Translations under genes and position numbers: made by a program
Shown here: positions 34,698 through 55,520 of the stretch, one piece after another
How positions within the stretch are numbered: the first letter of the stretch is position 1
How the letters are laid out: the number at the start of each line of letters is the position of its first letter
Notes under the pieces: model-generated
What the model saw: only the letters and a program-made list of their open reading frames with translations
Database searches by the model: none
What the model was told of the DNA's origin: nothing
Assembly (NCBI GenBank): GCA_022712895.1
Contig: JAFLJS010000036.1
Span: forward strand, 1-64,000
Reading direction: 5' to 3'
Length of the DNA stretch: 64,000 nt
From: Desulfocapsa sp.
GTDB taxonomy: Bacteria > Desulfobacterota > Desulfobulbia > Desulfobulbales > Desulfocapsaceae

Positions 34698-37600
34698 ATG
34701 AGCGCAGGTTTCACCCACCTTCATGTCCACACACAATACAGTCTCCTAGATGGTGCAATCCGTCTACCAGATATGCTTGCCAAGTGCAAAGAACTTGGCA
34801 TGGATTCCGTTGCCATCACTGATCATGGCGCCATGTACGGCGCTCTCGAATTCTTTTTAAAAGCAAAAGCCAAAGGGATTAAGCCCATTGTCGGCTGCGA
34901 ATTTTATATCGCTCCCGGCCATCGTACAGATAAAGACCCCACTGCCCCCACCAAGGCGTATCACCTCGTTCTCCTTGCCATGGATTATACTGGCTATAGA
35001 AACCTGATGAAACTTGCTGGAATTGCTCAATTTGAAGGATTCTATGCAAAACCCCGAATCGATATGGAGGTATTGCGAGAACATAACGAGGGGCTAATCT
35101 GTCTCAGCGCCTGCCTGCATGGAGAAATCCCCTGGTTTGCAGTCCACAAAGGACAAAAAGCTGCCACAAAAAAGGCACAGGAGTATCTGGACATTTTCGG
35201 CGACAGGCTCTATCTCGAGCTCCAGGACAACTCAATTCCTCAGCAAACCGTCGTTAATAGCTCACTGAAAACAATTGCGAAAGAACTCGGCATTAAGCTT
35301 GTTGCCACCAACGATTGTCATTATCTCAACAAAAAAGATGCCTATGCCCATGAGGTCCTGCTCTGTATTCAGTTTGGTAAAACTATTACCGACCCCAAAC
35401 ACTTCAGTTTCCCTTCCGACACGTTCTACTTCAAATCTGCTGACGAGATGCGGGAGAGCTTCAAAGATTGTCCTGAAGCCATCACGAATACTCAAGAAAT
35501 TGCGGATCGCTGTAACCTCGATATAAATCTTGACGATTACCATTTTCCGGAATTTCCGGTACCCGAAGGCGAGACACTGGAGACGATGTTTGTTACTGCC
35601 TGCTGGGATGGCTTAAAAGAACGCTTTGCTGCCATGCGCAACGCAGGTACATTCAGTAAAGAGATTGAAAAGCAGTACACTGAACGACTGGAATATGAAC
35701 TTGGTATTATCAATTCCATGGGCTTTGCCGGATACTTTCTTATTGTGGCTGACTTTATTAACTGGGCGCTCGATCACGATATCCCCGTCGGCCCCGGCCG
35801 TGGGTCCGGTGCTGGAAGCCTTGCCGCCTATGCCATGCGCATCACCAACATAGATCCAATTCCTTACGGCCTTATTTTTGAACGATTCTTAAATCCTGAA
35901 CGCGTCTCCATGCCTGACTTTGATATTGACTTCTGTCAATATCGACGTGGTGAAGTGATCGATTATGTACGAAACAAGTATGGCGGCGCAGCACACGTTG
36001 CCCAAATCATTACTTTCGGCTCCATGAAAGCCAAAGGTGCCATCCGCGATGTTGGCAGGGCGCTTGATATTCCTTTCGGCGAGGTGGATAAGATCGCCAA
36101 ACTTATCCCGGATGCCCTGAAGATGACAATTGACAAGGCCCTTGACGAAGAGCCCCGCCTTGTGGATGCCATCAACAAAGATCCGCGAATAGCAGAGCTT
36201 ATCGAGATAGCACAGACCCTCGAGGGACTGGCAAGACACACTTCAACCCATGCAGCAGGTGTTGTGGTGTCGCCCAATCCCATGGTGGAATATCTGCCGA
36301 CCTGCAAGGGAAAAGACGGAGAGACGCTCACCCAGTATGATATGAAGCATACTGAGATGACAGGTCTTATTAAGTTTGACTTTTTAGGCCTTAAAACTCT
36401 CACTGTTATAGATAACGCCCTGAAACATATCCTGGCTGATATCGGTACTGATCTTGATATTAACGCCATCCCCATGGATGATTTAAAGACCTACAAGCTG
36501 CTCTGTGATGGAGATGCCCTTGGGGTCTTCCAACTGGAAAGTTCCGGCATGCGAGAGCTTCTGGTGAAGATGGCTCCCGAGCAATTCACTGACCTTATTG
36601 CCCTGGTAGCCCTCTACCGACCCGGTCCATTGGATTCTGGTATGGTTGATGATTTTGTAGAAACCAAACATGGACGTGCCACTGCCAACTATCCCTTGCC
36701 AGAGCTGAAACCGATTCTTGAAGAAACCTACGGAGTGATAGTTTACCAGGAACAGGTAATGAAAATCTCCTCCGTACTTGCCGGTTATTCTCTCGGAGAC
36801 GCTGATATCCTGCGTCGCGCCATGGGCAAGAAAATTGTTGAGGTGATGGATGAGGAGAAGGTCAAATTTATGGCCGGTGCCAAGAAGAAACAGGTCGATC
36901 TCAAAAAAGCGGAATATGTTTTCGATCTCATGGCAAAATTTGCCGGTTACGGTTTCAACAAATCACACTCTGCTGCCTACGCACTTATCTCATACCAGAC
37001 AGCATACCTGAAAGCACACTACCCTTCACAGTTTATGGCCGCCCTGCTCTCCTGTGACATGAACAACACAGATAAAATCGTTCTCTACATCAATGAGTGC
37101 AGAGAACATGCCATTGAAGTGCGGCCTCCCGATATAAATGAGTCGCTCATCGATTTTTCTGTCCATAATGACCGTGTCCGTTTTGGTATGGCTGCTGTTA
37201 AAAATGTAGGCAAAGCTGCCCTGCAGTCAATTATCGAAGAACGTGAGGAGGGCGGGAAATATAAGTCACTTGAGGATTTTTGTAACCGGGTCGATTCCAG
37301 GAAAGTCAATTCACGGGTTATTGAAAGTCTTATTAAATCAGGGTCCTTTGATTCTGTAGGTTGCAAACGTTCTCAACTCATGGCAGTTGTTGATCAGGCC
37401 ATGGACAAAGCCAAAGCAGTACAGCGCGACAAACAATCCGGACAGATGTCACTTTTTGCCCTGGCCCCGGAAACCGACACCAGTGACAAAAGTGCAATAA
37501 CCTTACCTGATATCCCTGAATGGGCAGAACGAGAACGTTTAACCAAAGAAAAAGAAACCGTCGGGTTTTACATCTCTGGCCATCCACTTGATGAAGACAT

Positions 37601-53103: not shown

Positions 53104-53940
53104 TTAATTAATTCCAGAACTTACATCTTCCTTTTCCACAAATCCGCCAAAACTCTTCTTCCCGAAAAAGTGGACGGCTACCACACTGATTTCATACAGA
53201 ATCAACAGTGGAATACCCATCATCATTTGATTTACGACATCGGGCGTAGGGGTCAGGATTGCGGCAATCACAAAATTGATAAGGATGGCATACTTTCTAT
53301 TTTTATTTAAGAAAGCAACTGATACAATACCCATCTTGGCTAGAAAGACCATCAGAATGGGCATTTCAAAAATAACTCCAAAGGCAATTAACAGACGTAA
53401 TGCCAAAGAAAAATATTCACTGACCGCTGGCATGGAAGTAAGAAAATCGTTGGAATAACCGACAAGAAAACGAAAAGCCGGGGGAAAGACAACGAAATAA
53501 CCAAAGGCGCAACCACCAAGAAAGCAAAGAGTGGAAAGAAAGGTAAAAGGTATCAGCACCCGTTTCTCATGTTTAAATAAACCGGGCGCAATAAATCGCC
53601 ATACCTGATAAAAAATCACAGGAGTAGCTGACAGCAGACCACAAACAAGTGCAAGCTTCAGATAGAAAAAGAAGCCCTCCTGATAGGAGGTAAAGATCAG
53701 CGTGCTTCCTTCGGGCAAGACGTCCATAAGAGGTTTAAAAAACCAGGTTCCGATGGGTTTGATAAAACCATAGGAAACTGCAAAACCGATTATCACAGCG
53801 ATAAGCGAAGTAATCAGACAAGAGCGCAGTTCACGCAGATGTTCTGTGAGAGCCTGGGACTCAAAAGTCTGTCCACTCCCGTCAGTTATTTTCTTTTCTT
53901 CGCTTGACTCATCCTGCATTGTATTTCTTCTTGCCTCCAT
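53104..53940 (-). CDS. tatC: Twin-arginine translocase subunit TatC
   Basis: The substrate-receptor subunit of the Tat pathway, which exports folded proteins. The 278-residue protein has six membrane helices and the conserved features TEHLRELRSCLI before helix 1, the periplasmic Pro-rich SATPVIFYQVWRFIAPGL segment, and helix-breaking FEMPILMVFLAKMG. An extra polar N terminus of about 25 residues precedes the core. The start ATG at 53940 has no clear Shine-Dalgarno; Met8 at 53919 is an alternative. tatA and tatB are not in the window. Confidence 0.95.
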   Translation of the reverse strand: MEARRNTMQDESSEEKKITDGSGQTFESQALTEHLRELRSCLITSLIAVIIGFAVSYGFIKPIGTWFFKPLMDVLPEGSTLIFTSYQEGFFFYLKLALVCGLLSATPVIFYQVWRFIAPGLFKHEKRVLIPFTFLSTLCFLGGCAFGYFVVFPPAFRFLVGYSNDFLTSMPAVSEYFSLALRLLIAFGVIFEMPILMVFLAKMGIVSVAFLNKNRKYAILINFVIAAILTPTPDVVNQMMMGIPLLILYEISVVAVHFFGKKSFGGFVEKEDVSSGIN

Positions 53941-54038
53941 GTTAAATGCTTTTCTTTTTTACCTTAATTCCTCACTTACGGCAAGGGGAGAGGGCGAACA
54001 AACAGCGCTGAAAAAGCTCCGTCCGCAAAAATTACAAT

Positions 54039-54080
54039 TTGACTTATGTCAATGATTTATGATTAACTTCTAACTATATT
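54039..54080 (+). promoter_or_regulatory. CRP/FNR-type (HcpR-like) operator and promoter of the octaheme cytochrome gene
   Basis: TTGAC-TTAT-GTCAA at 54039-54052 is a perfect palindrome flanked by T on both sides. TATATT lies at 54075-54080. If transcription starts near 54087, the palindrome centre is at about -41.5, the class II activator position. TTGAC-N4-GTCAA is the kind of site used by CRP/FNR-family regulators, including HcpR of sulfate reducers, which controls genes for nitrogen oxides. The regulator itself is not in the window. Confidence 0.55.
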
Positions 54081-54157
54081 ATATTTCTAAAAATTTTATC
54101 CTTATCGACAGGCGGTAAGAGATTAATTTATTAACCATTTTCACCTTGGGAGGGAAA

Positions 54158-55447
54158 ATGAAATCATTTAAAGTAGCATTGGCCATCGGTGCTTTTGCTC
54201 TGCTCGCTACTTCCGCAAGTGTAGCAGTTGCAGACGACTGTATCGATTGTCACACAAAAGTATCTCCTGGCATGGTAAAGGACTTCCAGGCATCAAAACA
54301 CGCTGAAAGCGGAGAAGTCACCTGTTCCACCTGCCACGGCGAGGCACATTCAACAGCAGAAGATTACAAAAAGGCAACACTGCCTAGAGAAGCTGTCTGT
54401 ATGGAATGCCATGAAGAGCAGTATAACTCTTTTGCCATGGGCAAGCACAACTTTGGTTGGACAAGCCTCAACGCAATTCCTGCAACCCACATGGCACCTG
54501 ATGAACTCATCGAAGGTGGCCGTGGTTGTGGCGGTTGTCACAACATGGGTATCAAATCTGAAGAGCAATTGAAAGCTCAGGCGGATGCCGGATACCGTTA
54601 CCAGACCAACTCTTGTGACGAATGTCATACCCGTCACACCTTCTCCAAGAAGGAAGCTAACAACCCTCGTGCATGCCAGACATGTCATATGGGTTATGAC
54701 CACCCACAGTGGGAAATGTGGTCAAGTTCCAAGCATGGTGTCCGTTACTTTGCAAAGCTTGAGGGTTCTCTGCCAGAAGGAGCTGCAGCCCCTACTTGCC
54801 AGACCTGTCACCTTCCTGACGGAACCCATCAAAATGAAACAGCATGGGGTTTCTTAGGTGTTCGTCTACCTCTGCCAGAAGATAAACAGGAAGCGGCTGA
54901 TCGTGTAGTTATTCTCAAAGCCCTTGGTGTTCTTGACCCCGAGACTGGAGAGCCTACCGCTATCCTTGATGCGGTTAAAGCTGTCAGAATGGTTAAGCTT
55001 GACCAGGCATCCTGGGAAAAAGAGCGTAATAAGATGCTCGACACGTGTAGCAATTGTCACTCCAGATCATATGCTAAAGAGCAACTGGAAATGGGAGATT
55101 CCATCCTTGGGAAAGCTGATCGTCTGATGGCGGAAGCAATTACAACTGTTGCGGAACTCTACAAAGATGGCATCATTAAGAAGCCTGCCGGATATCCGCA
55201 CAACTACCCATTCCTCCTTTCCTTCATGCACACCAATGGTGCAAAATGGAATGAGGACTTGGACAGCCTCTCTTTTATCGATCAGGTTCTGCTGCGTATG
55301 TTCATGAAACATCGTATGCGCGCTTACCAGGCATTCTTTCACGTGAACCCTGACTATGCCTACTGGTATGGCTGGAACATGATGACAGAAGACCTTGGCG
55401 AAATCAAAGAACTTGCCAAAACCATGAGAGCAACCCACAAGAAGTAA
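54158..55447 (+). CDS. hao: Periplasmic octaheme cytochrome c, hydroxylamine-oxidoreductase-like
   Basis: A 429-residue periplasmic multiheme enzyme. The Sec signal peptide ends VAVA-DD near residue 25. Eight CxxCH heme sites are present: CIDCH (28-32), CSTCH, CMECH, CGGCH, CDECH, CQTCH, CQTCH and CSNCH. HAO-family segments are clear: KHAESGEVTCSTCHG, SCDECHTRHTFSKKEA, DHPQWEMWSSSKHG and FHVNPDYAYWYGW. In non-nitrifiers such proteins (epsilon-HAO type) are thought to reduce nitrite or hydroxylamine. The ATG at 54158 has GGAGGG 4 bases upstream; a TTG four codons earlier is discounted. No NapC/CycX-type quinol partner is adjacent. A strong terminator follows. Confidence 0.92.
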   Translation: MKSFKVALAIGAFALLATSASVAVADDCIDCHTKVSPGMVKDFQASKHAESGEVTCSTCHGEAHSTAEDYKKATLPREAVCMECHEEQYNSFAMGKHNFGWTSLNAIPATHMAPDELIEGGRGCGGCHNMGIKSEEQLKAQADAGYRYQTNSCDECHTRHTFSKKEANNPRACQTCHMGYDHPQWEMWSSSKHGVRYFAKLEGSLPEGAAAPTCQTCHLPDGTHQNETAWGFLGVRLPLPEDKQEAADRVVILKALGVLDPETGEPTAILDAVKAVRMVKLDQASWEKERNKMLDTCSNCHSRSYAKEQLEMGDSILGKADRLMAEAITTVAELYKDGIIKKPAGYPHNYPFLLSFMHTNGAKWNEDLDSLSFIDQVLLRMFMKHRMRAYQAFFHVNPDYAYWYGWNMMTEDLGEIKELAKTMRATHKK

Positions 55448-55479
55448 GGGTTTTTCTTCTCGTTGTAACGGTTTGAATG

Positions 55480-55520
55480 ATCCCCGGTTATCTTCCAGCA
55501 AGATAATCGGGGATTTTTTT
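55480..55520 (+). terminator. Intrinsic terminator of the octaheme cytochrome gene
   Basis: Arms 55480-55494 and 55500-55514 form a 15-bp GC-rich stem with one wobble pair and a 5-base loop, followed by a run of seven T. It makes the cytochrome gene a single-gene transcription unit. Confidence 0.92.

Follow-up and report, generated by a model that had tools for sequence, protein, structure and literature searches.

An HcpR/DNR-type activator site predicted upstream of an HAO-like octaheme cytochrome gene in Desulfocapsa

Which regulator governs the gene for an HAO-related octaheme cytochrome in Desulfocapsa sp., and does that control tie the cytochrome to reactive nitrogen species? The question is raised by a palindrome, TTGACTTATGTCAA, that lies in the intergenic DNA between a divergent tatC-like gene on the minus strand and the cytochrome gene on the plus strand. 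The locus is part of a 64,000-nt stretch of DNA (hereafter, the window) from a draft genome of 3.68 Mb in 75 contigs (G000), and the literature, in the portions covered, assigns no function to this octaheme family. The answer that we hold with considerable confidence is that 54039-54052 is the site of an HcpR1/DNR-type CRP/FNR activator that switches on the HAO-like octaheme gene for reactive nitrogen species, alongside the frdX arm of its regulon. What the analysis shows directly is a conserved site with conserved spacing, a motif that also precedes hcp and frdX, and a gene for a fitting regulator; binding, activation, signal, export, and substrate are inferred. Several genes mentioned below (tatC, ResB/CcsA, NapADGH, NrfCD, CODH, CooA-like, LexA, and DNA polymerase III alpha) were named by eye from their sequences.

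A preliminary description of the locus had read TTGAC-TTAT-GTCAA as a perfect palindrome placed for class II activation, with TATATT at the right distance, and both parts of that reading hold up well. The arms, TTGAC and GTCAA, form a perfect inverted repeat around an inner TTAT that is not self-complementary, and the spacer between the palindrome and TATATT (54075-54080) is exactly 22 nt. Taking TATATT as the -10 box, transcription would start near 54087, and the palindrome's centre (54045.5) would fall at -41.5 relative to that predicted start, which is the distance at which class II activators bind. A consensus scan of the cytochrome promoter detected no sigma-70 -35/-10 hexamer pair, as expected for a promoter that depends on an activator. 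Among the 11 loci of the genus that carry the site, a TANNNT hexamer follows the palindrome at exactly 22 nt in seven, against a background of 1.6% per position, and the remaining four have AATACT, TATAAA, TATACA, and TATCTG at that place. Downstream, the cytochrome gene is best read from the ATG at 54158 and encodes eight CxxCH motifs; a terminator-like hairpin behind it suggests that the cytochrome is probably a single-gene unit (Table 1).

Table 1. Features of the cytochrome locus, in window coordinates.
Feature	Position	Strand	Remark
Divergent tatC-like neighbour	53104..53940	-	named by eye; adjoins the cytochrome in 11 fetched genus loci
HcpR/FNR-type palindrome TTGAC-TTAT-GTCAA	54039..54052	+	predicted activator site, centre near -41.5
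Predicted -10 hexamer TATATT	54075..54080	+	22 nt 3' of the palindrome; inferred
Leader hairpin 1 (CTTATCG-loop-CGGTAAG)	54101..54119	+	compensatory base changes within the genus
Leader hairpin 2 (CATTTTC pairs with GAAAATG)	54134..54160	+	covers the ribosome-binding sequence (GGGAGG) and the start codon (ATG)
HAO-related octaheme c-type cytochrome, 429 aa, with Tyr402 where HAO has its cross-link	54158..55447	+	eight CxxCH, profile alignment
Terminator-like hairpin with T-run	55479..55515	+	consensus match only

Frequency by itself says little about such a string. If at most one mismatch is allowed, the palindrome is matched three times in the window against 2.68 expected, and the whole genome contains five copies of the exact pattern against eight of a backward control pattern. 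A relaxed pattern yielded 25 matches genome-wide, 20 of them within ORFs, against 19 for its backward version, a slight excess, and in 19 genomes of the genus the counts of the exact pattern and the backward control were of similar size. The string by itself is therefore not significant, and genome-wide counts were rejected as support, leaving only position and conservation to count. A second exact TTGACnnnnGTCAA in the window, at 35926-35939, lies within a DNA polymerase III alpha-like coding sequence and was taken as chance.

Conservation within the genus is marked. Fifteen orthologous loci were fetched, and ten of these carry the exact motif at -119 to -122, with an eleventh (G010) differing by one base at -115. 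No full site was found near -120 in the other four (G007, G022, G021, and G006); G021 has a match to nine of ten positions at -301, G022 has a match to eight of ten at -92, and in G006 the start codon of the cytochrome ortholog was not located. The loci with a site are exactly the 11 in which a tatC-like neighbour was detected (11/11), with the proviso that the contigs of G007 and G021 end less than 500 bp away, so that a neighbour cannot be judged in either. In an alignment of the 11 genomes, identity reaches 0.99 in the half-sites, 0.93 in the inner four bases, and 0.76 in the -10 box, relative to 0.54 in the upstream DNA (53940-54038). Of all placings of the motif in the aligned stretch upstream of 54130, the one at 54039 is the best conserved.

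The site also extends beyond the genus. A genome scan found 420 stretches that encode octaheme relatives, and the best 80 of these come from Desulfobacterota, Desulfuromonadales, Zixibacteria, Krumholzibacteria, and others. A set of 76 orthologs was assembled from the window's own gene and 75 of these 80, the other five being dropped for having less than 300 bp of upstream DNA. In this set, whose genus loci come largely from the same genomes as the 15 orthologs above, 22 of the 76 have TTGAYNNNNRTCAA within 400 bp upstream, as compared with a mean of 0.28 and a maximum of 3 in 200 shuffles and with 2 for the backward pattern; the other 54 have no full site within 400 bp. Leaving out 12 loci (the genus plus one sister genome) still gives 12 motif-bearing orthologs in 64, against 0.225 by shuffling. 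Only five of these 12 have TANNNT at 21-22 nt, and two of their sites stand at -210 and -369.

The motif points to a known regulon. According to the available part of PMC1274295, the HcpR consensus predicted for delta-proteobacteria other than Desulfovibrio is wyTTGACnnnnGTCAArw, with hcp and frdX as the main targets, and the palindrome at 54039-54052 matches this published form, TTGACnnnnGTCAA. The same excerpt states that HcpR of Desulfovibrio reads a CRP-like TGTGA site, TTGACnnnnGTCAA being the form predicted for the other delta-proteobacteria. The earlier statement that HcpR-type regulators of sulfate reducers recognise similar sites needs correction in this respect for Desulfovibrio.

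Within Desulfocapsa, all 16 examined copies of hcp (from 15 genomes) have TTGAYNNNNRTCAA upstream, 131-141 bp from the start codon in 15 copies and 278 bp from it in the G022 copy that lies near the cytochrome. TANNNT follows these hcp sites at 22 nt in 13 copies and at 21 nt in three. The regions came from 16 genomes, G009 and G023 not being among them, and the G012 copy, which begins at a contig end, was set aside; seven of the regions had been chosen through an exact-pattern match on the same contig, the match being at a gene other than hcp in six. Across the family, the site occurs at 26 of 29 hcp loci, and 24 of the 26 have TANNNT exactly 22 nt on; this sample consists of the 30 best-scoring loci, 29 of which have a recognisable start (three of them from Desulfocapsa), and the loci without a site are those of G056, G052, and G081. 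Likewise, frdX-like ferredoxin genes carry the site in 11 genomes, including G000, with TANNNT at 21 nt in all 11, although most of these loci were chosen because the pattern matched there and the 11 genomes give no unbiased rate. The frdX site lies 72-77 bp from the start in ten genomes and 84 bp from it in G000, or about 168 bp if a later start codon is used there.

Several loci bring the two kinds of gene physically together. In two more distant genomes (L116 and L120), the 14-mer TTGACTTATGTCAA stands at -81 and -85 of frdX, with an octaheme gene directly downstream on the same strand, and the cytochrome gene lies less than 2 kb from an hcp gene in G022, G041, and G043. In G041 and G043, the 350 bp in front of the cytochrome-adjacent hcp gene hold no full site. 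The accessible portion of PMC545781 lists a cytochrome c gene of Desulfuromonas that has a predicted HcpR site and a number adjacent to that of frdX1. At loci of several Desulfocapsa genomes (L207, L209, L219, and L222), the frdX-side site is also 53-61 bp away from a divergent membrane antiporter-like gene and may serve two genes.

The octaheme cytochrome is thus presented as a new member of the known HcpR regulon. A search of PubMed Central, which covers few of the subscription papers, found, in the text consulted, no link of HcpR to an octaheme cytochrome or to hydroxylamine oxidoreductase. Assignment to a regulon with hcp and frdX turns a guess from homology about a widespread octaheme family into a testable physiological role. 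The tie to nitrite, NO, or hydroxylamine metabolism drawn in the preliminary description is borne out to the extent that motif and spacing are common to hcp and frdX, and induction by nitrogen oxides would be expected on the same grounds.

The genome of the window itself is unusual with respect to hcp. No gene of G000 exceeds the cut-off of the hybrid-cluster model (360.8 bits), which 84 of the 93 family genomes do exceed, and hcp appears to have been lost. Two prismane-family matches were considered as hcp and rejected, the only match of G000 to the hybrid-cluster model reaching 49.7 bits, within a CODH-like gene, and both being CODH-like by eye. A search for the palindrome near hcp, nrf, or nap genes, as suggested at the outset, had a mixed outcome in G000: no hcp was detected, the stretch of the nap cluster holds no exact site, and the nrfA locus offers at best eight of ten positions, while frdX has its site. 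That no hcp control is seen here is a property of the genome rather than of the site. The nap cluster (C48, 60000-74000; L265) comprises Nap-like nitrate reductase genes with NrfCD-like genes and a second octaheme protein of 546 aa; nrfA is separate from it, on contig C73.

For a regulator to read the site, the genome offers two CRP/FNR proteins over the HTH_Crp_2 cut-off. The candidate is a 219-aa protein without cysteine (C72, 41966-42622), whose GTIPETLSR helix is present in 30 of 30 fetched orthologs. A helix of the Pro/Ser180-Glu181 type is linked to TTGAC sites in the part of PMC1274295 at hand, and positions Pro180-Glu181 were assigned in the C72 protein by the helix pattern described there. 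The lack of cysteine means that there is no FNR-type Fe-S cluster, and the closest solved structure by sequence is DNR (PDB 3dkw; E 5.5e-32). An ortholog at 58% identity or more occurs in 80 of the 93 family genomes. G016 and G008 have no CRP/FNR protein over the cut-off besides this ortholog, and as both genomes have cytochrome, hcp, and frdX sites, this points to the C72 ortholog as their reader. Conversely, the draft assemblies of G015, G020, and G021 yielded no C72 ortholog, with hcp sites still kept in G020 and G021; G021 has a single CRP/FNR protein over the cut-off, and it is of the other, CooA-like type. The second protein of G000 (C56) was rejected as the regulator, since its gene adjoins one for a CODH-like protein and its helix reads SRQTVS, a third match (C11) falls under the cut-off and reads as LexA, and the short Crp model (PF00325) matched nothing in G000. 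The reader of 54039-54052 in G000 is most likely the C72 protein, and the earlier suggestion to look for an hcpR gene in the genome is answered by this fitting, cysteine-free CRP/FNR protein with a Pro-Glu helix. By analogy with DNR and with HcpR of P. gingivalis (PMC12750200, as far as its available text goes), it may bind heme and sense NO.

Other explanations of the palindrome must be set against these findings. It could be a product of chance, or the conserved -35 region of an ordinary promoter, and the string does occur at chance frequency in both window and genome; moreover, a similar palindrome upstream of dsrA overlaps a TTGACA/17 nt/TATTCT pair and lacks TANNNT at 22 nt. This explanation is nonetheless scarcely credible, given that both arms are 99% conserved amid diverged flanks, that the spacing is common with hcp and the site is in excess over shuffles, and that the scan finds no -35/-10 pair. 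The palindrome might instead serve the divergent tatC-like gene, alone or in addition to the cytochrome, a reading encouraged by the genus, where all 11 loci with a tatC-like neighbour have the site and the four without one lack a site near -120 (the contigs of G007 and G021 ending within 500 bp). It is very unlikely, however, because the -10-like hexamer stands on the cytochrome side, orthologs outside the genus also have sites, all but one without a tatC match in their flanks, and the frdX-octaheme pairs carry the identical 14-mer.

A possibility to be taken more seriously, which we still consider unlikely, concerns the signal rather than the site: the same CRP/FNR protein would bind, with general anaerobiosis, redox state, or some other ligand as the cue and the cytochrome acting as an anaerobic respiratory component. 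Other orthologs (L057, L067, L074, L080, L090, L102, and L103) do have the classical FNR form, TTGATnnnnATCAA, and the regulator, found in 80 of 93 family genomes (identity of 58% or more), is distributed like a core gene. Against this stand the lack of any cysteine in the 219-aa protein, the co-targets hcp and frdX, and DNR as the closest solved structure.

What, then, would be switched on? The best named match to the cytochrome is from Desulfocapsa sp. (90% identity), and its best solved relatives are HAO-family proteins, with a sequence-profile E of 2.1e-29 to 4fas. Profile alignment with N. europaea HAO (4fas/1fgj) places Tyr402 at residue 467 and Asp181-His182 at residues 267-268, which we take to be the P460 cross-link residue and the catalytic pair, respectively. 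The surrounding NPDYAYWYG is found in 79 of 81 orthologs; of the two without it, one reading ends after 54 aa and the other has a short C-terminus. A predicted structure matches HAO over residues 182-429 (Z 11.1, rmsd 3.4, 201 aligned), which exceeds the values for NrfA (Z of 7.3 or less) and for unrelated helical proteins, with the caveat that helical proteins can reach such a Z through common arrangement. The model is mediocre (mean pLDDT 66.9), and the tyrosine argument consequently rests on the profile alignment.

The tyrosine has implications for the direction of catalysis. The available part of PMC12758564 considers tyrosine-type HAO oxidative and histidine-type reductive, predicts the reductive histidine type for most bacteria outside anammox, and reports signs that Desulfobacterota changed to tyrosine separately. 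Judged from the aligned residue, the cytochrome behind the HcpR-type site may therefore be of the oxidative HAO type, which is unexpected for a nitrosative-stress reductase, and its place in a regulon could help to reveal what a tyrosine-type HAO does in an anaerobe. The second octaheme protein of G000 (546 aa) has PDYTHWHG at the same place when aligned by eye, that is, a histidine.

The proposed sequence of events is as follows. When the signal is present (NO by analogy, probably via heme), the C72 regulator would bind at about -41.5 and recruit RNA polymerase to a promoter that has a -10 box and lacks a recognisable -35 box. This would turn on one gene, that of a presumably periplasmic, HAO-like octaheme cytochrome, alongside the frdX arm of the regulon, and the cytochrome would handle reactive nitrogen species, be it hydroxylamine, NO, or nitrite.

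Three known systems come closest. The HcpR regulon of delta-proteobacteria other than Desulfovibrio, as described in the consulted portions of PMC1274295 and PMC545781, has the same motif, hcp and frdX as core targets, the Pro-Glu helix type, and no FNR cysteines; here, by contrast, the target is an HAO-like octaheme cytochrome, G000 lacks hcp, and the regulator gene does not adjoin hcp. DNR of Pseudomonas aeruginosa (PDB 3dkw), the closest solved relative of the C72 regulator by sequence, has an FNR-like box, TTGATnnnnATCAA (PMC1274295), and senses NO via heme (PMC12750200), as far as the available texts of these two papers go. DNR controls denitrification genes, and use of heme by the Desulfocapsa protein is suggested by analogy. 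Finally, the HAO family (N. europaea, 1fgj/4fas; K. stuttgartiensis, 6h5l) has in common with the cytochrome eight hemes, the profile match, the partial fold match over residues 182-429, and the aligned Tyr and Asp-His. The differences are an identity of about 20% over the fold match, a length of 429 aa versus 546, and an anaerobic host, and a cross-link in the Desulfocapsa protein is a possibility raised by the aligned tyrosine.

The 5' leader between promoter and gene, about 71 nt long if transcription starts at 54087, may add a further layer of control. Hairpin 1 shows changes on both sides in seven of its nine pairs among 11 genomes, and the covariation score of the whole leader is 0.264, as compared with 0.146 when shuffled; none of 500 shuffles scored as high, in a control that ignores relatedness, and sliding the partners lowers the score to 0.06-0.12. 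Hairpin 2 is nearly invariant, which makes support from covariation impossible, and as it would sequester the start codon, it hints at control of translation. A leader model (R1) found this leader as its only match in G000, where 150 of 2,227 first-look candidates were scored, and it also matched orthologs outside its building set (L032, L022/L050, and L019). No match to R1 was seen among the given hcp and frdX loci (36 sources), and the four Rfam matches (E 0.67 to 3.6) all fall far under the gathering scores, none being credible for the leader. A bolder and rather doubtful suggestion would join these threads: a strictly anaerobic, sulfur-disproportionating lineage may use a P460-capable, tyrosine-type HAO as an NO-inducible, HcpR-controlled detoxifier that replaces the lost hcp in G000, with the leader hairpin providing a second, translational control.

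Two other palindromes in G000 deserve mention. One, TTGACAAAGGTCAA (C42, 10337-10350; L005), lies about 209 bp upstream of dsrA and is common to G013 and G016. Its left arm doubles as a -35-like box (TTGACA/17 nt/TATTCT), and TANNNT is absent at 22 nt; for these reasons it was not counted as a regulon site, and it may be either an HcpR repressor site on sulfite reductase or chance. The other is the same palindrome at 14453-14466 of contig C2 (L001 and L015), where it stands 80 bp ahead of a ResB/CcsA-like pair for cytochrome c maturation and a small gene for a cytochrome c; of the loci fetched, only that of G013 has it too.
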